Assembly: GCA_946186495.1 (NCBI GenBank)
Contig: CAMHNQ010000020.1
Location: 1 to 47,197, forward strand
From: an uncultured Bacteroidales bacterium
GTDB taxonomy: Bacteria; Bacteroidota; Bacteroidia; Bacteroidales; WCHB1-69
Direction: 5' to 3'
Length of the DNA: 47,197 nucleotides
Both the position numbers and the translations under genes were made by a program. Numbering within the stretch: position 1 is the stretch's first letter; every line of letters begins with the position of its first letter. Positions 39,520-47,197 of the stretch are shown here, in pieces. The notes below the pieces were generated by a model. It had not been told where the DNA came from. It saw only the letters and a program-made list of their open reading frames with translations, and did no database searches.

Positions 39520-40017
39520 ATGGATAAGATAATTATCAAAATGAAAAAAGAAGTCAGTGACAAGATTATTGAGATCTGCGACAGCTTCAATAATGCTCCT
39601 GGCGAATTGATTAACGTGTTGCATCAAACGCAGGACTTCTTGGGCTACCTCCCCGCCGAGGCCCAGGAGTTGATTGCCGAGAGACTGCACATCCCGACCG
39701 CCAAAGTCTATGGCGTGGTCTCTTTCTACTCCTTCTTCACCATGCAGCCGAAGGGTAAATACCCGGTGTCTGTCTGCATGGGCACGGCCTGCTACGTTCG
39801 CGGTGCCGAGAAGATTCTTGATGCATTCACCAACGAACTCAAAATCCCTGTCGGCGAAACCGACAAGGACGGTCTCTTCTCCCTCACCTCCTTGCGCTGC
39901 GTCGGCGCTTGCGGTCTGGCTCCCGTCGCCTTGGTTGACGGCAAAGTCTATGGCCGACTTGCTCCTGCCAACGTCAAGAACATCGTGAACGAGTACAGAG
40001 AGATGGATAAACAATAA
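39520..40017 (+). CDS. hydC: NuoE-like [2Fe-2S] subunit of the hydrogenase (HydC)
   Basis: This 165-aa protein has the NuoE layout: a helical N-terminal part (PGELINVLHQTQDFLGYLP, VYGVVSFYSFF) and a thioredoxin-like domain with the [2Fe-2S] ligands C86, C91 (CMGTAC) and C127, C131 (CVGAC). It passes electrons between HydB flavin and the iron-sulfur chain. It lies 40 bp after hydA and is the last gene of the operon; in many other species hydC comes first, so the order differs here. The start is ATG 39520; Met8 would also keep the fold. The last 38 codons are copied at 46084-46198. A strong terminator follows at 40041. Confidence 0.93.
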   Translation: MDKIIIKMKKEVSDKIIEICDSFNNAPGELINVLHQTQDFLGYLPAEAQELIAERLHIPTAKVYGVVSFYSFFTMQPKGKYPVSVCMGTACYVRGAEKILDAFTNELKIPVGETDKDGLFSLTSLRCVGACGLAPVALVDGKVYGRLAPANVKNIVNEYREMDKQ

Positions 40018-40040
40018 TTCCTGATCTGTAGGATATGAGA

Positions 40041-40069
40041 AAGGCGTCGCGGTTGCGGCGCCTTTTTTT
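40041..40069 (+). terminator. Terminator of the hydrogenase operon (copy 1 of 3)
   Basis: AAGGCGTCGC pairs with GCGGCGCCTT (loop GGTT, one G-T pair), followed by seven T in all. The same hairpin occurs at 42581-42609 and 46222-46251, each time directly before the 28-nt palindrome and an MNT gene. Confidence 0.88.
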
Positions 40070-40097
40070 GTAGGGGTGAATCATTATTCGCCCCTAC
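40070..40097. repeat. 28-nt REP-like palindrome, copy 1
   Basis: GTAGGGGTGAATCA followed by TTATTCGCCCCTAC. The arms pair except for a wobble and the AT centre. Relatives at 42611-42638, 46252-46279 and, in reverse orientation, 45890-45917. Confidence 0.8.
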
Positions 40098-40118: not shown

Positions 40119-40126
40119 TATCTTTG
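40119..40126 (+). promoter_or_regulatory. -7 box of MNT/HEPN module 1
   Basis: TATCTTTG, 22 nt before the ATG at 40148, in a block (GTTGTATATATAAAAAATG and TTTGCCTTTGCAAAAGAAGAC) shared with modules 2 and 3. A TTG 15 nt upstream, at the edge of the palindrome, may act as the -33 element. The leader would be only about 15 nt. Confidence 0.6.
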
Positions 40127-40147: not shown

Positions 40148-40462
40148 ATGAATCGCAAGGAAATAGTGGAAAAAGCCAAGCAGGCCATCCGTTCTGTCGA
40201 GCCGGATGCGGAAATCATTTTGTTTGGCAGTGAAGCCCGCGGCGACGCCCGTCCCGACAGTGACATTGACCTGTTGGTGCTGCTGTCCGGCGACAAAAAG
40301 TCTGTTGACCGCGAACTCAAAATCAGCGGCCAGGCAATGCTACTCGAAATAGAAACAGGAGTTAACATCAGTCCTAAGATATATTTGAAAAAAGATTGGG
40401 AAAACAGGCCTTTTGTTACACCATTTTATCTTAATGTTATGAGGGAGGGCATTGCATTATGA
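40148..40462 (+). CDS. MNT-type nucleotidyltransferase, module 1
   Basis: This 104-aa minimal nucleotidyltransferase has the catalytic signature GSEARGDARPDSDIDLL (GS-x10-D-x-D; G27, S28, D39, D41). Such proteins are paired with HEPN proteins and, in studied cases (MntA of Shewanella), block them by attaching AMP groups. The family differs from the mntA genes of modules 2 and 3: after the catalytic motif it has a longer C-terminus (SPKIYLKKDWENRPFVTPFY) that in related proteins contacts the partner. Start is the ATG 22 nt after the -7 box. It overlaps the HEPN gene by 4 bp (ATGA), as expected for translational coupling. Confidence 0.85.
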   Translation: MNRKEIVEKAKQAIRSVEPDAEIILFGSEARGDARPDSDIDLLVLLSGDKKSVDRELKISGQAMLLEIETGVNISPKIYLKKDWENRPFVTPFYLNVMREGIAL

Positions 40463-40865
40463 CACAACAGTGGGACAAAGAGAGTAGAGATGCTCTGATT
40501 GCATATCGCATGAAACGGGCTGACGAAACCATGCAAGAGGCTGATTTAATGATCAAAGAAAGTCTTTATCATGGAGCCATCAACAGATTGTACTATGCCT
40601 GTTACTATGCTACTGTCGCTATTCTGCTAAAGAATGGCATTCAAGCACAAACCCACGCAGGGGTAAAAACCATGTTAGGACTGCATTTTGTTTCCAAAGG
40701 ATTGAAATAGGGAGAATCCTTACTACTCTCTTTGAAAGACGTCAAACTGGCGACTATGATGATTTTGTACTATGCGATCAATCTGAAGTTGTCGAATTGA
40801 GAGAAAAAGCGGTTGCTTATATAGATTGTATGAAATCATTGCTGTCTGATGCAGACGAACAATAA
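40459..40865 (+). pseudogene. HEPN-domain protein, module 1, with frameshift
   Basis: The first 83 codons (to the stop at 40708-40710) encode the front of a PF05168-type HEPN protein: MKRADETMQEADLMI, AINRLYYACYYATVAILL, THAGVKTMLGLHFVSKG. The expected remainder continues in the next frame from 40701: IEIGRILTTLFERRQTGDYD, DFVLCDQSEVVELREKA, ending DADEQ at 40865 (about 135 aa in total). One base is therefore missing near 40692-40700. The truncated form lacks the C-terminal helices and is probably inactive. A sequencing error is possible but the partner gene is intact. The RNase motif R-x4-6-H seen in HepT proteins is not evident in this subfamily. Confidence 0.8.
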
Positions 40866-40907
40866 CATATTAACCCCATATTTTTCACCAAAAACCAAAA
40901 AACACCG

Positions 40908-41046
40908 AAAAGAAAAACTGAAATTATAACATATTGACATAAAGCGTTTTCGCTTTTCTTAGCAAGTGGAAATCTGGTAAATTTCTCAAATTAATGCACA
41001 AGAAAGTCGAAACGCTCACGGTTATATCCGTGGGCTTTCTTGTTTG
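40908..41046 (+). ncRNA. Perfect 139-bp repeat, copy A; possible structured RNA
   Basis: Identical to 43371-43509. Predicted pairings: local hairpin AAAGCG-TTTT-CGCTTT (40941-40956); strong stem ACAAGAAAG (40998-41006) with CTTTCTTGT (41035-41043), enclosing CACGG-TTATAT-CCGTG; and a long-range helix AGCGTTTTCG (40943-40952) with CGAAACGCT (41008-41016), which would form a pseudoknot with the strong stem and compete with the first hairpin. I do not recognise the family. Strand is assumed from the flanking genes. Confidence 0.5.
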
Positions 41047-41200
41047 TAGTGACAGGTCCGTCCAGAGCCTCGGTTGTAAACATGAAGTTCACGGATTTTT
41101 TATGTTTGTGATTTACGAGCGGAACCTTCCTACGGGAAATTACGAAAAACAGTTGCAACAATTACACAAGATTTAATAGAATGCCTGGATGAAAAAAACG

Positions 41201-41208
41201 TACCTTTG
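41201..41208 (+). promoter_or_regulatory. -7 box of the serine hydrolase gene
   Basis: TACCTTTG, 29 nt before the ATG at 41238. No clear -33 TTTG. If this is the promoter, repeat A lies upstream of the transcript and not in its leader. Confidence 0.5.
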
Positions 41209-41237
41209 CAAATTCTTTCAAAACAATAAACGATACT

Positions 41238-42404
41238 ATGAATGCCTTAAACAAAATACTGACACTCGCTATCATCGCATTGGCCATGTCTTCTTGCGCG
41301 ATTGTAAGGGGACTGAAGACTGATGGCAAGAACGGTCCTAATATCTTCAGTTTTGAGCAGCGCGAACTCGACACGATAGCCAACGGCAAGCAAACATTCC
41401 AATTCCCATACGGCAAACGGGCCGACTGGATTGACACACTGCATTTCACTCAGCCTCATTGCGAAAGCAAGCCCTTCGGGGAGGAGATGGCGTCGGCAAG
41501 TACCACGCAGGGATGGCTCATCCTCCATAATGACAGCATCGTTTACGAAAAATATTGTGGTGATTTCTCTGCCGACCGCTTGGCCACTATCTTCTCCGTT
41601 TCCAAGTCCATCACATCGCTAATGTGCGGTATCGCGGTAGATGATGGCTACATCCGCAGCATCGACGACCCCGTTACCAATTATCTGCCGGAGTTGAAGA
41701 AGAAAGACCCGATGTGGCAGAAACTGACCATCCGCCATCTGCTCGACATGAAGAGCGGACTGGATTTCGACGACATATATGAATTCAGCTGGAAAGAGTT
41801 GAAGTACCTTAACGCGATGGCCAAGTTGAATTACGGACACGACATTATGAAGCAGATAGAAGGGCTGAAATTCCGCTGCGAACCTGGCACCCAGCGCCGA
41901 TATGAAAGCATGACTACGGCCATTCTCGGTGTTGTCATCGAGCGGGCTTCAGGCAAGCGTTATGCCGACTATCTTAGCGAGAAAGTTTGGAAACCGCTCG
42001 GCATGGAGCATTCCGCACTCATCAACATCGACAGCCGCGAACACGACGTAGCGCACAGCTTCGGCGGCATAGCAACCACCCTGCCAGACCTCGCCAAAAT
42101 AGGCCGTCTATATCTCCATAATGGTATGTGGGATGGCAAGCGTATTGTGAGCGAGGAATGGATACGTCAAACAATAGAGTTCGATTCCACCAATATCGGC
42201 TATCACTTCAACTGGTATAATATAAATTACGAAGGCTACATACGTCCAGAACATTCCGGCTATTATGCACTGGGCATCTGCAACCAGGTGCTTTACGTCA
42301 ACCCCGACAAGAACCTTGTCATGGTAAGAATTGGGAAGCACAACAACTGCTGCGCCATTATTCCGGTGCTCCTTGAGCAGTTAGCCATCTCATGGAAAGA
42401 ATGA
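41238..42404 (+). CDS. Lipoprotein serine hydrolase, beta-lactamase/DD-peptidase family
   Basis: This 388-aa protein starts with a lipoprotein signal (lipobox LAMSSC, Cys20), so it is probably anchored in a membrane facing the periplasm or cell surface. The PF00144 fold is clear: nucleophile motif S120-V-S-K123, IDDPVTNYLPEL, LTIRHLLDMKSGL, GTQRRYESMTTAILGVVIER, and WKPLGMEHSAL. The second catalytic motif is Y222-E-S224 in place of the usual Y-x-N, and the last motif (HxG or KTG) is not obvious: the region reads SGYYALGICNQVLYVNPDKN where relatives have a His-Gly pair. Family members include esterases, D-aminopeptidases and DD-carboxypeptidases, so the substrate cannot be predicted. It is flanked by MNT/HEPN modules on both sides and appears to be a single-gene transcript. 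Confidence 0.85.
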   Translation: MNALNKILTLAIIALAMSSCAIVRGLKTDGKNGPNIFSFEQRELDTIANGKQTFQFPYGKRADWIDTLHFTQPHCESKPFGEEMASASTTQGWLILHNDSIVYEKYCGDFSADRLATIFSVSKSITSLMCGIAVDDGYIRSIDDPVTNYLPELKKKDPMWQKLTIRHLLDMKSGLDFDDIYEFSWKELKYLNAMAKLNYGHDIMKQIEGLKFRCEPGTQRRYESMTTAILGVVIERASGKRYADYLSEKVWKPLGMEHSALINIDSREHDVAHSFGGIATTLPDLAKIGRLYLHNGMWDGKRIVSEEWIRQTIEFDSTNIGYHFNWYNINYEGYIRPEHSGYYALGICNQVLYVNPDKNLVMVRIGKHNNCCAIIPVLLEQLAISWKE

Positions 42405-42571
42405 CACCCAAGAGTGTGCCTCCACCGGCATCAACCATAGTCCTACACACAGTGCTCCCACTTCAGGAAAATGATTTCTCGCTGGTTGGTGACTTCGGCC
42501 ACCACCGCCATCGCCGTGAGAAACAGAATGATAGACACATTCCGTAGTACTGATGTATTCCACTTTTCCAT
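42405..42571 (-). pseudogene. N-terminal remnant of a small membrane protein
   Basis: From ATG 42571 the minus strand encodes MEKWNTSVLRNVSIILFLTA and then MAVVAEVTNQREIIF. In that frame it then ends quickly, but a one-base shift after REIIF restores PEVGALCVGLW and LMPVEAHSW up to the serine hydrolase stop codon. This resembles the start of a multi-spanning Bacteroidota membrane protein. The rest is missing because the serine hydrolase gene begins there. It indicates that an older gene was cut by the arrival of the hydrolase. Confidence 0.45.
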
Positions 42572-42580
42572 TTTATGGAA

Positions 42581-42609
42581 AAGGCGTCGCGGTTGCGGCG
42601 CCTTTTTTT
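42581..42609 (+). terminator. Terminator hairpin, copy 2
   Basis: Same hairpin as at 40041 (AAGGCGTCGC, GGTT, GCGGCGCCTT and a T-run). It lies 176 bp after the serine hydrolase stop, so here it may end that transcript; its presence is better explained as part of the duplicated module front. Confidence 0.8.
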
Positions 42610-42610
42610 T

Positions 42611-42638
42611 GTAGGTGCGAATCATTATTCACCCCTAC
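42611..42638. repeat. 28-nt REP-like palindrome, copy 2
   Basis: GTAGGTGCGAATCA followed by TTATTCACCCCTAC. It has two mismatched pairs compared with copies 1 and 3, so it is the most diverged of the three intergenic copies. Confidence 0.75.
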
Positions 42639-42659
42639 GGGTTGTATATATAAAAAATG

Positions 42660-42667
42660 TATTTTTG
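42660..42667 (+). promoter_or_regulatory. -7 box of MNT/HEPN module 2
   Basis: TATTTTTG, 21 nt before the ATG at 42689. The position and flanks match modules 1 and 3, which have TATCTTTG. Confidence 0.55.
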
Positions 42668-42688
42668 CCTTTGCAAAAGAAGACGATT

Positions 42689-42988
42689 ATGAGCACAGAA
42701 ATGATTGAGACCATACGCGAGTATTTCAAGACCCAGCCTGTGTTGAAGGCTTGGATCTTTGGCTCGTATGCACGTGGCGAGGAAACGGAGGACAGTGATG
42801 TGGATATTTTAGTAAAATATGATGATACTGACAGTACTGTCGGGTTAATGAAAATCGCGAGTATGTACGTTGCATTGAAAAAAATGCTCAACAGAGAGGT
42901 TGACCTCGTTGAAGAAGGAACTCTTTTACCGTTTGCGGTTGAGAGTGCTGATAATGATAAAATTTTGATTTATGAGAGAGCCAGTTAG
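42689..42988 (+). CDS. mntA: MntA antitoxin nucleotidyltransferase, module 2
   Basis: This 99-aa protein has the catalytic signature GSYARGEETEDSDVDIL (GS-x10-D-x-D; G25, S26, D37, D39), the motif of MntA proteins that AMPylate HepT. The first about 124 bases are the same as mntA of module 3 apart from one base, but after DVDILV the sequences part (KYDDTDSTVGLMKIASMYVA here). The track of the frame extends upstream, but ATG 42689 fits the shared promoter. It overlaps hepT by 17 bp. Complete and probably functional. Confidence 0.88.
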   Translation: MSTEMIETIREYFKTQPVLKAWIFGSYARGEETEDSDVDILVKYDDTDSTVGLMKIASMYVALKKMLNREVDLVEEGTLLPFAVESADNDKILIYERAS

Positions 42989-43319
42989 AGACAAAGAACG
43001 ACTTATTCATATCCTCGAAGCTATTGACCGCATCCAAAATAGGATGCCTGCTTTAGATTTGGACAACTTGTTGCAAGATGCATTGGTGTATTACGGTGTT
43101 GTCAAGAGTATAGAAATCATCGGGGAAGCTGTTTATAAGTTATCCACAAGTTTCAAAGACGCGCACCCGCAAACAGTTTGGGAGAATATAGAAGGTATGC
43201 GTCATGTACTGGTTCACGATTATTATCAGATTCTCCCAGACAGAGTGTTAGATGTTGTAATCAACGACCTCCCTCCTCTCAGAGGCCAAATCGAACAATA
43301 CCTCTCCGAAATGGAGTAA
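42972..43319 (+). CDS. hepT: HepT-like HEPN ribonuclease toxin (DUF86), module 2
   Basis: This 115-aa DUF86 protein carries the complete R-x4-H-x-Y motif, R77-HVLV-H82-D-Y84. In studied HepT toxins the Arg and His cut RNA and the Tyr is the AMPylation target of MntA. Other family features are ILEAIDRIQ, DALVYYGVVKSIEIIGEAVY and HPQTVWENIEGMR. It overlaps mntA by 17 bp, so the pair is likely translationally coupled. It is the only one of the three HEPN genes in the window that is intact. Repeat copy B begins 51 bp after the stop. Confidence 0.9.
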   Translation: MREPVRDKERLIHILEAIDRIQNRMPALDLDNLLQDALVYYGVVKSIEIIGEAVYKLSTSFKDAHPQTVWENIEGMRHVLVHDYYQILPDRVLDVVINDLPPLRGQIEQYLSEME

Positions 43320-43639
43320 CAACAATAAGATTATCAACCCCAATTTTTCACCAACCCCCAAAGAACATCAAAAAGAAAAACTGAAATTATAACATATTGA
43401 CATAAAGCGTTTTCGCTTTTCTTAGCAAGTGGAAATCTGGTAAATTTCTCAAATTAATGCACAAGAAAGTCGAAACGCTCACGGTTATATCCGTGGGCTT
43501 TCTTGTTTGCATTAGGGTTTTACCAGAGCCTCCACTTGAACAAAAAAGTTTCACGGATTTTTTGTGTTTGTGATTGAAGAGCGGAAATGTTTTATAACAG
43601 ATTGAAATCCAATTAGTACAAACATAAAAAAACAAGAGT
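43320..43639. other. Gene-free region with structured 139-bp repeat copy B
   Basis: It holds the 139-bp repeat and its weaker extension to about 43586. No clear -7 box lies in front of the beta-helix gene; the repeat is 131 bp upstream of its ATG, so it may lie in or near that leader. Confidence 0.75.
43371..43509 (+). ncRNA. Perfect 139-bp repeat, copy B; possible structured RNA
   Basis: Identical to 40908-41046 (offset 2463), with the same predicted stems and pseudoknot. The identity is stronger than that of the two neighbouring HEPN genes or the genes downstream, so it was copied recently or is kept uniform. Further on, CCAGAGCC, TTCACGGATTTTTT and GAGCGGAA are also shared with copy A. 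CACGG there could pair with CCGTG in the repeat just before a T-run, which would be attenuator-like. Confidence 0.5.
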
Positions 43640-46021
43640 ATGAAAAAGATTCTAAGTTTTATTGCGATTGCCCTAATGGGCATGACAACCATTTTCGCCC
43701 AAACGCCCAACTATCAAGGAATCATCTACGTAACTCCTACGGGAGCAGGGACACACTCCGGCGACAGCTGGGCTAATGCCACTTCTTCCATTGACACGGC
43801 ACAGACATTAGCACAGGCAAACAATGCCGTGGTTTGGGTGGCAGCAGGTGTTTACTATGGAGACACGACGGCAACTGCCGAAAACGCATTCGTGATGACG
43901 GAAGGAGTGAATGTTTATGGTGGCTTTGCGGGTAATGAACCTGATAGTTTTGATCTAACACTAAGAGATTTTGAAATGAACGAAACGATACTAGACGGAG
44001 ATTCCGCAAGAAGGGTACTATATCAACCCAACAATTTTAATACAGAAACGATTTGGGATGGTTTTACAATACAGCATGGATACTTGACAATAGGGTATGG
44101 AGCTGGCGTTAAGTTAAAGGGACAAGGGTGTCTATCCTATTGTCTAATACAGTACAATACTTTACTTGGTACCTTTTATCAAGGGGGAGGGGTGGACGCC
44201 GAGAATTCGACTGTCAGCAATTGTAAAATCACGAACAATAATAATAATGATGGATATGGGGGAGGGGTGTACGCAAGTTATTCCACAATCTATAATTGCC
44301 AAATAACTTCTAATAGTGCGATGCATAATGGCGGTATAAGAGCATTCTATTCCAATGTAACTAATTGTCACATAATAGGCAATAATACGACCCACGGTAG
44401 CAGTGGAATATTCGCGAGATATTCCATAGTAAACGATTGTCTGATTACGGATAATGCTACAGATGGAAATGGAGGAGGTGTATATGCTAGCAATTCTTCT
44501 ATCAACAATTGTGAAATCACAGGAAATACAGCGAGTCATGGTGGTGGATTGTATGCATCTGAATTTTCCATTGTTAGCAATTGTAATATCATGGACAACA
44601 CATCTGACATACCAGGAGGAGGAGTGTATATAACAGATCATTCATCTATCAACAACTGTCACATCATAGGTAACTCTTCTGGTAATTATGGAGGAGGTGC
44701 CTATGTTTCAAATAGTTCGACTATTATTGATTGCTATATTGTAAATAACACTGGGTATTTCGGTGGAGGCGCCTATGTTTCAGATAGTTCGACTATTATT
44801 GATTGCTACATTGTAAATAACATTGGATATTACAGTGGTGGAGTACGTGCAGACAATTCTATCATAACTGGTTGCGAAATAATTGCTAATAAAAGTGGAG
44901 GTGGGGTTTTTGCGAACGGTTCTACCGTCTCCAATTGTCTAATTGCCAACAATAAAAGCATGAACAGATACAACGCTGGAGGAGTAAACGCAAACAATAC
45001 AAGAATAACCAACAGTACTATTGTTCGCAATAGTTATGGTGCTGTCGATTCCCTTTATTCTGCTGGAGTTAACCTTGACGAGTACTCATTTCTTGCCAAC
45101 TCAATAGTGTGGGGAAATGAAAATAATGGCGAGGTCATAAATCTTATTGGTAATGGTACTTGTTCCTACTCTGCAATCGAAGGAGATTATGTAGGTGACA
45201 GTATCATCACACTGAGTGCGGACAATCTGCCTATGTTTATTCATCCTTCGCTAACATCAGGTGTAAACGATACAACTCTTGATGTTGATTGGCATCTGTC
45301 CGAAAATTCGCCCTGTATCAACTATGGCAATAACTTTTTTGTGGACGACAGCCTTGACTTAGACGGTATGCCACGTATTAAACGTAACACAGTGGATTTG
45401 GGGTGTTACGAATCCGATTATTGTAACGATATTACATTTAGTGATACGACAACTACAGTATGCGAACTATTTAACTGGCACCAATATCAAGGACTCACTG
45501 AAAGTGGAGACTATATAGACACGCTAGTAAATGCGACAGGTTGCGATTCAATAATAACTCTTCACCTCACCGTTAACCCCACTGAAGTGTCCGAGTTCTC
45601 TGTCACCACCCCCGACTCTTGCTACACCTGGAATGGTGTTGATTATTGCGAATCCGGCACCTACACCCAAACCCTCCAAACCTTTCACGGCTGCGATTCC
45701 GTAGTAACCCTTCACCTCACCATCGCCGTTGGCGTCGACGACCACAACCAAGGCGCTGCCATAACGGTTTATCCCAACCCCACCTCTGGCGTTATCCATG
45801 TACAATTAACAATGAATAATGTACAATTGAAAAACGTTGAAATTCAATTGTATGATGCGTTCGGGCGGTTATTACAGACAACGGGCGGCGTAAGGGCAAA
45901 TAATCATTCGCCCCTACAGACGGCACAAATCGACCTCTCCCCATTCGTCCCCGGCATCTATTTCATCAAGGCCGTGGCGGAAAGCAATGTGCTGGCAATA
46001 CGGAAGGTCGTGAAACGGTGA
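43640..46021 (+). CDS. Type IX-secreted right-handed beta-helix protein
   Basis: This 793-aa protein has a signal peptide (cut near IFA/Q, residue 21), an opening IYVTPTGAGTHSGDSWANAT typical of choice-of-anchor Q beta-helix proteins, and about 12 coils of the form GGGVYASxSxINNCxIxxNxA (residues about 165-470). Then follow DLDGMPRIKRNTVDLGCYES, two SprB-like units (CDSIITLHLTVN, CDSVVTLHLTIA) and a type A sorting domain (VYPNPTSGVIHVQL ... PGIYFIKAVAES ... KVVKR). The protein should be exported through the inner membrane, cross the outer membrane by the type IX system, and be attached or released at the surface. Function: adhesin or glycan-binding or -cleaving; no catalytic site is seen. Repeat copy B precedes it. 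A REP-like repeat is embedded in the sorting domain (45890-45917). Confidence 0.9.
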   Translation: MKKILSFIAIALMGMTTIFAQTPNYQGIIYVTPTGAGTHSGDSWANATSSIDTAQTLAQANNAVVWVAAGVYYGDTTATAENAFVMTEGVNVYGGFAGNEPDSFDLTLRDFEMNETILDGDSARRVLYQPNNFNTETIWDGFTIQHGYLTIGYGAGVKLKGQGCLSYCLIQYNTLLGTFYQGGGVDAENSTVSNCKITNNNNNDGYGGGVYASYSTIYNCQITSNSAMHNGGIRAFYSNVTNCHIIGNNTTHGSSGIFARYSIVNDCLITDNATDGNGGGVYASNSSINNCEITGNTASHGGGLYASEFSIVSNCNIMDNTSDIPGGGVYITDHSSINNCHIIGNSSGNYGGGAYVSNSSTIIDCYIVNNTGYFGGGAYVSDSSTIIDCYIVNNIGYYSGGVRADNSIITGCEIIANKSGGGVFANGSTVSNCLIANNKSMNRYNAGGVNANNTRITNSTIVRNSYGAVDSLYSAGVNLDEYSFLANSIVWGNENNGEVINLIGNGTCSYSAIEGDYVGDSIITLSADNLPMFIHPSLTSGVNDTTLDVDWHLSENSPCINYGNNFFVDDSLDLDGMPRIKRNTVDLGCYESDYCNDITFSDTTTTVCELFNWHQYQGLTESGDYIDTLVNATGCDSIITLHLTVNPTEVSEFSVTTPDSCYTWNGVDYCESGTYTQTLQTFHGCDSVVTLHLTIAVGVDDHNQGAAITVYPNPTSGVIHVQLTMNNVQLKNVEIQLYDAFGRLLQTTGGVRANNHSPLQTAQIDLSPFVPGIYFIKAVAESNVLAIRKVVKR
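45799..45829. repeat. TGTACAATT direct repeats within coding sequence
   Basis: TGTACAATTAACAATGAATA is followed by a second TGTACAATTG. Short AT-rich repeats of this type are common between Bacteroidota genes; here they encode VQLTMNNVQLK just after the start of the sorting domain. Confidence 0.5.
45890..45917. repeat. 28-nt REP-like palindrome inside the beta-helix gene
   Basis: GTAAGGGCAAATAA followed by TCATTCGCCCCTAC. It matches the reverse complement of the copy at 40070 at 24 of 28 positions by my count. It encodes VRANNHSPL in the sorting domain, between LLQTTGG and QTAQIDLSPF. Confidence 0.75.
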
Positions 46022-46083: not shown

Positions 46084-46198
46084 CGGCGCTTGCGGTTTGG
46101 CTCCCGTCGCCTTGGTTGACGGCAAAGTCTATGGCCGACTTGCTCCTGCCAACGTCAAGAACATCGTGAACGAGTACAGAGAGATGGATAAACAATAA
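46084..46198 (+). pseudogene. Copy of the last 38 codons of hydC
   Basis: This matches 39903-40017 with one base change seen (GGTCTGG against GGTTTGG). The reading frame is GACGLAPVALVDGKVYGRLA up to EMDKQ and stop. An ATG at 46073 is in frame, but the product (41 aa) has only half of the cluster ligands and is not expected to work. The duplication continues through the terminator, palindrome and promoter to about 46325. Confidence 0.92.
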
Positions 46199-46221
46199 TT
46201 CCTGATCTGTAGGATATGAGA

Positions 46222-46251
46222 AAGGCGTCGCGGTTGCGGCGCCTTTTTTTT
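46222..46251 (+). terminator. Terminator hairpin, copy 3
   Basis: Same hairpin as at 40041, with one more T in the run (eight). It follows the hydC tail copy exactly as the original follows hydC. Confidence 0.85.
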
Positions 46252-46279
46252 GTAGGGGTGAATCATTATTCGCCCCTAC
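46252..46279. repeat. 28-nt REP-like palindrome, copy 3
   Basis: Identical to copy 1 (40070-40097) over the 28 bases; one base differs just after it (CTACGTG against CTACGGG). Confidence 0.8.
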
Positions 46280-46329: not shown

Positions 46330-46617
46330 ATGAGCACAGAAATGATTGAGACCATACGCGAGTATTTCAAGACCCAGCCTGTGTTGAAGGCTTGGATCTT
46401 CGGCTCGTATGCACGTGGCGAGGAAACGGAGGACAGTGATGTGGATATTTTGGTGGATTTGGACTATTCCAAGCCTGTCGGGTTGGAATTTGTACAAATG
46501 CAACTAGATCTGCAGTCTCTTTTGCAAAAATCCATCGATCTGGTTTCCTCGCGAGGAATGTCAAAATACATTAAACCATACGTTGATTCAGAAAAACTAT
46601 TACTCTATGAATGCTAA
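46330..46617 (+). CDS. mntA: MntA antitoxin nucleotidyltransferase, module 3
   Basis: This 95-aa protein has the GS-x10-D-x-D signature (G25, S26, D37, D39). Bases 46330-46453 match mntA of module 2 except one, then the protein differs fully (DLDYSKPVGLEFVQMQLDLQ, SIDLVSSRGMSKYIKPYVDS, which is the more usual MntA C-terminus). Start ATG 46330 follows the shared promoter. It overlaps the HEPN gene by 11 bp. Probably functional as an enzyme, although its partner is frameshifted. Confidence 0.87.
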   Translation: MSTEMIETIREYFKTQPVLKAWIFGSYARGEETEDSDVDILVDLDYSKPVGLEFVQMQLDLQSLLQKSIDLVSSRGMSKYIKPYVDSEKLLLYEC

Positions 46618-46947
46618 AATATCCGACCATGTGAGAGTGATGCACATTTTGGATGCCATCAAAGAAATTGAAAACTACATTCAAGGGGCAGACAAAGACT
46701 CTTTTGCAAACAACTCCATGATGTTTAACGCCACGCTGCACCAGTTGGAGATTATTGGGGAGGCGGCTAACGGCCTTAGCGATGAGTTTCTCATGAACCA
46801 TCCCGACACTCCCTGGGCTCGAATTATTGGCTTGAGGAACCTGATTATTCACGAATATTTTGGCGTGACGACCAGACAATTTGGAGCATCGTCACTATCA
46901 ATATCCCACAATTGAAAGCATATTTGTCCGAACTGGACGAACAATAA
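46607..46947 (+). pseudogene. hepT: HepT-like HEPN toxin (DUF86), module 3, with frameshift
   Basis: Starting at ATG 46607, the frame encodes a DUF86 protein with VMHILDAIKEIENYI, MMFNATLHQLEIIGEAAN, HPDTPWARIIGLRNLIIHEY and the active motif R77-NLII-H82-E-Y84. After GV (46865-46867) the frame ends in an unrelated tail at 46915, while the usual C-terminus (DDQTIWSIVTINIPQLKAYL ... ELDEQ) continues one frame over to 46947. One base has been lost or gained at about 46865. The catalytic motif remains but the last 26 residues are altered, so activity is doubtful. Confidence 0.85.
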
Positions 46948-47197
46948 CGATATTAACATGGAACAACTACCGAATAACCAAGAAGTTAGCAAGCAGTTAG
47001 CAAGCAGTTAGCAAGCAGTTAGCAAGCAGTTAGCAAGCACTTGGCAAGTATTTGCCATACATTTGGCATACCTCTGCCAGCGAGTTGAGTCGTCATTTCT
47101 TCGATAGTTCTTCGATGGTTCTTCGATAGTTCTCCGATAAAACATCGAAGAACTGTGATTTGCTGATTTTGGTTGTCACTTTTGAGCCTTACGACTG
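46948..47197. repeat. Two families of 11-bp-phased tandem repeats
   Basis: At about 46982-47055, AGTTAGCAAGC repeats four times and then decays (ACTTGGCAAGT, ATTTGCCATAC). At about 47093-47152, AGTTCTTCGAT-type units (three or four copies) are followed by an inverted copy ATCGAAGAACT. No gene is seen in this stretch. The first family shares the GCAAG core and 11-bp spacing with 32914-33021. Confidence 0.8.

Follow-up and report, generated by a model that had tools for sequence, protein, structure and literature searches.

Transcription attenuators of the trp type divide their leader RNA into four segments, and the purine, lysine and cobalamin riboswitches have loop–loop contacts. Structured RNAs have also been described from Bacteroidota, namely Bacteroidales-1, Bacteroides-1, Flavo-1 and the other motifs given in the part of PMC2864571 used here. 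The present work concerns a structured leader RNA of about 176 nucleotides (nt) that occurs twice in a 47,197 nt stretch of DNA from an uncultured Bacteroidales bacterium (contig CAMHNQ010000020.1 of assembly GCA_946186495.1; the whole stretch is referred to as the window). Both copies lie on the plus strand, copy 1 at 40928–41104 and copy 2 at 43391–43566. Judged from sequence and folding models, the RNA family is real, occurs widely and is laid out in the manner of a transcription attenuator, and we consider it probable that the RNA acts in cis as a riboswitch-like attenuator of a new family.

The RNA was noticed through a repeat. An initial annotation had reported two identical, noncoding copies of 139 bp, and both properties hold: 40908–41046 and 43371–43509 agree without a difference, the mismatched first flanking base on either side confirms the exact length, and the mechanically derived open reading frames (ORFs) of 56–107 residues that overlap both copies are without gene support. 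As a unit, however, the 139 bp fall short of the functional element. A wider block (40858–41046 and 43321–43509) is 93% identical, and the conserved block reaches from an A-rich leader on the upstream side to the U-run that ends it. By blastn (E ≤ 0.01) the repeat has eight matches in its own genome, comprising both window copies and some short ones, and it was matched in 44 of 100 related genomes including its own, again with some short matches; such matching among relatives exceeds chance by far.

Support for the fold from covariation is very strong. Alignment A1 contains 36 rows, 35 of them distinct, from the genus, family and order; four of 40 sequences (L039, L012, L033 and L050) were left out. 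It supports a single fold made up of a hairpin P0, a closing helix S1, a hairpin P2, a long three-part helix P3, a hairpin P4 and a loop–loop helix between P2 and P4. Of its 1659 cells 93.0% are paired, two-sided changes are found in 25 of the 48 pairs and the covariation score is 0.398, compared with at most 0.083 when the partners are slid. In A2, 68 matches drawn from the order's other families were aligned with the covariance model R1, in which the kissing loop is not included; here 93.7% of the 3216 cells are paired, two-sided changes occur in 38 of the 48 pairs and the score is 0.579, compared with at most 0.065 for slid structures. In thinned matches, at least six contiguous base pairs can form between the two loops in 62 of 65 cases for A2 and 45 of 49 for A3, as they can in 44 of 45 cases for A6 (Alistipes, Bacteroides and Fibrobacter, model R2; L323:1556 is omitted from the 46). 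The mean lengths are 6.2–6.5, compared with 3.6–3.9 for shuffled partners, with 36 (A2) and 29 (A3) distinct loop pairs. G–U cells outnumber A–C cells by 222 to 47, and the plus strand is therefore the RNA.

In copy 2, which is intact, looks functional and scores 177.9 bits with R1, the strands of S1 are at 43427–43431 (5′) and 43533–43538 (3′), and all six pairs show two-sided changes in both A1 and A2. P2 occupies 43432–43448, with 43437–43442 pairing to the loop (43521–43526) of P4 (43515–43530). The outer 5′ strand of P3 together with the 5′ arm proper covers 43453–43484. The strong stem, competing hairpin and pseudoknot suggested initially are thus borne out by covariation, by the kissing-loop test and by terminator folding, and the compensatory changes whose lack was named as a refutation are abundant. 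Nine copies from Alistipes and Bacteroides (L324, L327, L328, L331, L333, L337, L338, L339 and L342) are 215–233 nt long and therefore contain an extra insert.

Four segments of the leader can engage in three competing pairings: 1:2, 2:3 (the antiterminator) and 3:4 (the terminator). Segment 1, at 43404–43423 (40941–40960 in copy 1), consists of the P0 hairpin and a U-rich stretch and is able to pair with segment 2, the 5′ arm of P3 (43462–43484). Segment 3, the 3′ arm of P3 (43491–43509; 41028–41046 in copy 1), has either segment 2 or segment 4 as its partner. Segment 4 is the tail before the U-run, which it includes (43548–43563; 41087–41101 in copy 1), and contains CACGGATTTTTT. This sequence had been noted initially as lying beyond the repeat; it is present at 41087–41101 and 43548–43563, but it belongs to the element as the 3′ arm of the terminator. 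In A1 the outer tail helix is paired in 98.6% of cells, and the U-run is present in 63 of 65 (A2) and 48 of 49 (A3) matches. Minimum free energy (MFE) folds of the 3′ half close the 3:4 arms beside the U-run in 63 of 64 (A2) and 47 of 49 (A3) cases, with a median z of about −4. For the 1:2 duplex, energies of −15.5 kcal/mol (A2) and −17.1 kcal/mol (A3) were obtained, compared with −12.4 ± 0.26 and −15.3 ± 0.26 kcal/mol, respectively, for shuffled partners; P0 with the P3 bulge, taken as an isolated helix, also goes beyond shuffles in A2. By MFE, copy 2 takes up the antiterminator fold of S1, P2, P3 and P4 (−60.0 kcal/mol), and copy 1 the terminator fold with segment 1 on segment 2 (−46.3). An antiterminator and a terminator that exclude each other, as expected of an attenuator, are thus predicted by sequence and folding.

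The covariance search over Bacteroidota that had been proposed found the RNA across the genus, the order and the phylum. R1 gave matches in 34 of the 36 genomes that represent the window's genus (its own included), in at least 41 of 60 genomes of relatives (the 36 of the genus among the 60) and in at least 93 of 295 genomes of the order. With R2, at least 59 of 395 genomes of the phylum were matched, as were 37 of 40 in the Bacteroides finegoldii genus group and 37 of 40 in the genus group of an Alistipes senegalensis metagenome-assembled genome; the RNA is also present in Fibrobacter. For any search covering more than 40 genomes, filters were strict and the candidates scored were few, so that its count is a lower bound. 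There were 3–33 matches per genome in 11 genomes, all picked for having a match, and the B. finegoldii DSM 17565 genome has 12 at E ≤ 0.001. A pattern scan, in which one kissing-loop variant was held fixed, gave at least 116 stretches; the 80 examined are labelled as 73 from Bacteroidota and seven from Fibrobacter. R1 matched 78 of these 80 loci and one viral contig (81 sources in all), and gave no match at E ≤ 0.001 in L185, L201 and L241. The copy on the viral-collection contig (L281:1006–1187) resembles that of B. finegoldii L192, and the contig could be either prophage or host DNA; the exact 23 nt core was found in no viral contig, and blastn of 40858–41130 gave no match among PLSDB plasmids or INPHARED phages. 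Several distant copies, for example G074:C597, G137:C6, G231:C120 and G204:C5, lie about 150–400 nt from a contig end, as if they adjoined an assembly-breaking repeat.

The surroundings of the RNA were analysed in a set of 219 matches, reduced to 214 by dropping five partial or false ones and to 182 by thinning on shared 8-mers. In 123 of 178 cases the box TAnnTTTG, reportedly a promoter consensus, lies no more than 120 nt upstream of the RNA (16.2 ± 3.9 in shuffles). Within 120 nt downstream it is found in 12 of 175 cases and is not above chance (14.3 ± 3.7 in shuffles). The next ORF of at least 100 residues is on the same strand in 146 cases and on the opposite strand in four, with none in six. 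An ORF starts within 350 nt downstream in 159 of the 182, with a median spacer of 67 nt. An upstream promoter followed by a same-strand gene without a promoter of its own, as an attenuator calls for, is therefore found in this set and more weakly in A6; the window copies themselves lack a box in the 120 nt upstream, and copy 1 has one between RNA and gene. Two tandem copies precede one exported-protein gene in L096 (1280–1469 and 1501–1667, minus strand), the second scoring 45.7 bits.

In our preferred reading, transcription would start upstream of the RNA, at a nearby promoter in most relatives and, for the window copies, probably at that of a module preceding them in an array resembling an operon. 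As it is transcribed, the leader could then adopt two alternative folds. In the ON fold, P0, S1, P2 and P4 joined by the kissing loop, and the long P3 (segments 2:3) would form; with segment 3 occupied in P3 the terminator would be blocked, so that the downstream gene is read. In the OFF fold, 1:2 and 3:4 would be paired, and the long hairpin with its U-run would halt the polymerase before the gene. Because P3 lies inside the S1/P2/P4 domain, whatever stabilizes this domain should turn the gene on; candidate triggers are a small molecule, a protein or the state of translation. The pairings, their covariation, the positions of promoter and gene, and the distribution are shown by the analysis; we infer that termination takes place in the cell, that switching runs in this direction and that a trigger of such a kind exists.

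A number of observations weigh against this interpretation. No promoter box lies in the 120 nt preceding either window copy; outside coding frames, the boxes closest to them are those before the MNT genes, and the window copies are therefore probably parts of longer transcripts. The upstream box is present in 29 of 49 members of the genus-level subset, and in A6 it is often absent or oddly placed. Orientation is also weaker in A6, which was drawn from whole genomes with many weak copies: the next ORF is on the same strand in 27 cases, on the opposite strand in 11 and absent in eight. An ORF of at least 100 residues is overlapped by more than 60 nt in 11 of the 182 matches and in four of 46 in A6. 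Conservation of the inner terminator helix in A1 is weak, with 70.5% of cells paired and two-sided changes in four pairs compared with 4.1 in shuffles, and in A3 the isolated helix of P0 and the P3 bulge does not go beyond shuffles (7.08, against a shuffle mean of 6.96 and maximum of 7.12). The A2 alignment was fitted to the nested structure and favours nested pairs, the kissing loop not being fitted, and the energy models leave the kissing loop out. Finally, Pfam reveals no common pathway among 148 downstream proteins and the 39 of A6, unlike most metabolite riboswitches, which serve one pathway.

The last point bears on the nature of the trigger. In place of a small molecule, the same attenuator might respond to a protein, to a small RNA (sRNA) or to a ribosome translating a very short frame upstream; this differs from the preferred reading in the trigger only, and we rate its chances at a little below even. 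The diversity of the downstream genes speaks for it. From the 159 proteins, those with identical starts and extra copies of a PLD-helicase family were dropped to leave 153, of which 148 were searched against Pfam, NCBIfam and PADLOC, with those longer than 400 residues trimmed to 400. These 148 represent 118 Pfam families (41 among 39 proteins of A6, where 39 of 42 were used) and include 19 with a type IX secretion system (T9SS) tail, 13 with BspA-type repeats, six Fib_succ_major proteins, six ResIII helicases and three LytTR proteins; PADLOC identified restriction, PLD-helicase and DISARM-like proteins. Of the 159, 102 look exported in a crude signal test, compared with 176 of 607 other ORFs at the loci. 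The leader motif TTGACATAA, directly 5′ of P0 (43397–43405; 40934–40942 in copy 1), argues in the same direction, with TGACATA in 37 of 179 leaders against a mean of 0.9 in shuffles, as do two-codon ATG frames in 30 of 179 leaders (15.9 ± 4.0 in shuffles, maximum 26). Frames of up to four codons, however, show no clear excess (62 against 51.7 ± 5.9, maximum 65), the motif does not conserve its start codon, and a junction with a kissing loop resembles ligand-binding domains. The frame counts lend weak support to the idea of an upstream reading frame.

We suggest more tentatively that one abundant switch class gates exchangeable accessory genes through a single common cell signal and travels along with them as a ready-made control element. 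The genes would be those for T9SS and other surface proteins, lipoproteins, and restriction and other defence functions. A genome holds about 30 copies of the RNA at most in gut bacteria of the Alistipes and Bacteroides types, and Fibrobacter has it as well. An RNA so common in gut Bacteroidota and with the design of a switch points to an unrecognized regulatory input for surface and defence genes, and its reading as a switch can be tested in cultured Bacteroides and in existing transcript data.

The upstream promoter box and the intrinsic terminator at the end would equally suit a separate trans-acting sRNA, transcribed from its own promoter, for which the downstream gene is incidental. We regard this as improbable. 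In 146 of 156 cases the gene shares the strand of the RNA, the median distance being 67 nt for the 159 matches where an ORF starts in range, and its own promoter box is no more frequent than chance would give; the competing antiterminator would be superfluous in a free sRNA.

The two window copies differ in their integrity. The 5′ part of copy 1 (154.8 bits with R1) equals that of copy 2, and after 41046 its 3′ part resembles that of relative L010, so that the strands of S1 (3′ strand at 41072–41077) and of outer P3 now match poorly. By these resemblances copy 1 is recombinant and its outer helices are mismatched; it is probably a relic or held in the terminator fold. The breakpoint is at the end of segment 3, and the 139 nt identity therefore ends there. 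As had been noted initially, both copies follow toxin modules and precede different proteins, all encoded on the plus strand. Upstream of copy 1 is an MNT/HEPN module (Pfam NTP_transf_2 and HEPN; 40148–40710, promoter box at 40119–40126), whose HEPN frame ends early, and upstream of copy 2 an MNT/HepT-like module (NTP_transf_2 and HepT-like; 42689–43319, promoter box at 42660–42667). The gene after copy 1 (41238–42404) encodes a protein of the Pfam Beta-lactamase family, of the serine hydrolase type, with an N-terminus that looks lipoprotein-like by eye; a promoter box, TACCTTTG, lies between copy and gene (41201–41208). That after copy 2 (43640–46021), which copy 2 may control, encodes a beta-helix protein with a T9SS Por_Secre_tail domain. 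The link to toxin modules applies to both window copies, but elsewhere the RNA precedes many other genes.

Shortened copies, consisting of the first ∼95 nt and mostly ending inside P0, stand directly before other accessory genes in arrays of the genus; among the 22 matches listed at least one place is counted twice, and two diverge before P0. Pfam names two of the genes behind them, DUF4325 and YhcG_C. These copies have the appearance of this leader stripped of its switch domain. The arrays could have been assembled through recombination between such leaders, which would account for the position of both window copies behind MNT/HEPN modules. Other repeats were observed in this region. The tail and flank of the gene ending at 40017 are duplicated with 99% identity (39903–40069 and 46084–46250), beside a third MNT module, which suggests that the two RNA-bearing units between them were inserted or duplicated by recombination. 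A 28 nt palindromic repeat, GTAGGGG...CCCCTAC, which we take to be akin to repetitive extragenic palindromic (REP) sequences, occurs four times (40070–40097, 42611–42638, 45890–45917 and 46252–46279). The HEPN frames of the first (40459–40710) and third (46583–46915) modules look interrupted, and 11 bp tandem repeats follow the third (46957–47066). The product of a short array gene without a Pfam match (L031:3115–3705, minus strand) resembles, by eye, a REP-associated tyrosine transposase.

The shortened array copies and the recombinant copy 1 could also indicate a recombination site or the end of a mobile element with an attC-like fold of one DNA strand. The end of a mobile unit had been among the initial suggestions, and an integron-like cassette site, considered on account of the short copies, was dropped as the principal reading in the light of what promoter, terminator and covariation had shown. 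We consider a site of this kind very improbable, since G–U and not A–C pairs prevail (222 against 47), unlike a DNA-strand fold, and since a promoter lies upstream, a terminator ends the structure and conservation extends through the phylum. The arrays could be explained by repeat-to-repeat recombination. A self-cleaving ribozyme, also proposed initially, is the least credible reading: the fold is compact and pseudoknotted, but no Rfam ribozyme matched in the window or the loci scanned, and the structure ends as an intrinsic terminator before a gene.

For the preferred attenuator, the best reading is a new RNA family, without a match in Rfam in the loci scanned and without a description in the literature searched. 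A match to a known family had been named as a refutation, and the comparison agrees with the initial view that none fits. Rfam 15 gave no matches at the gathering thresholds in the whole window, and seven matches, all far under gathering, in 40800–41240 at E ≤ 10. Nothing over the element was found in 19 distant loci at E ≤ 0.5 or in nine loci from Fibrobacter, Bacteroides, Alistipes, Prevotella, Tenacibaculum and Cytophagales at E ≤ 1. DUF805 (RF03081) and DUF805b (RF02914) are typed Cis-reg in Rfam, the kind of role proposed for this leader, but they are separate RNAs of 35–68 nt that do not overlap it. A DUF805 match lies between RNA and gene in L089 and L090, as does a DUF805b match just under gathering in L089 and L102; in L083 a DUF805/DUF805b match lies past the first gene. 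The Bacteroidota motifs with an Rfam entry had no match in the loci scanned, a comparison that covers those of the consulted part of PMC2864571 except Bacteroides-2 and GUCCY-hairpin, which have no Rfam number. No such RNA is named in the titles and abstract openings searched, and the supplementary lists of PMC8040213 may hold an unnamed entry.

The initial suggestion of a riboswitch-like leader is supported by the covariation, the loop–loop pairing and the competing folds, and it can be made more specific by comparison with the known systems. With trp-type attenuators the RNA shares the exclusive pairings 1:2, 2:3 and 3:4, of which 3:4 is an intrinsic terminator. It differs in that 2:3 is enclosed by a domain of four helices that includes a kissing loop, in that the genes do not form one biosynthetic pathway and in that a leader peptide with regulatory codons, a trp feature, is putative at most here. 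With the purine, lysine and cobalamin riboswitches it shares a compact junction domain, a loop–loop contact and a coupled terminator, whereas the four-way junction, the kissing of P2 with P4 and the use of P3 itself as the antiterminator set it apart; no Rfam riboswitch family matched in the loci scanned. The RNA would thus work like a riboswitch or a trp-type attenuator and, should a small molecule bind it directly, would itself be a riboswitch.

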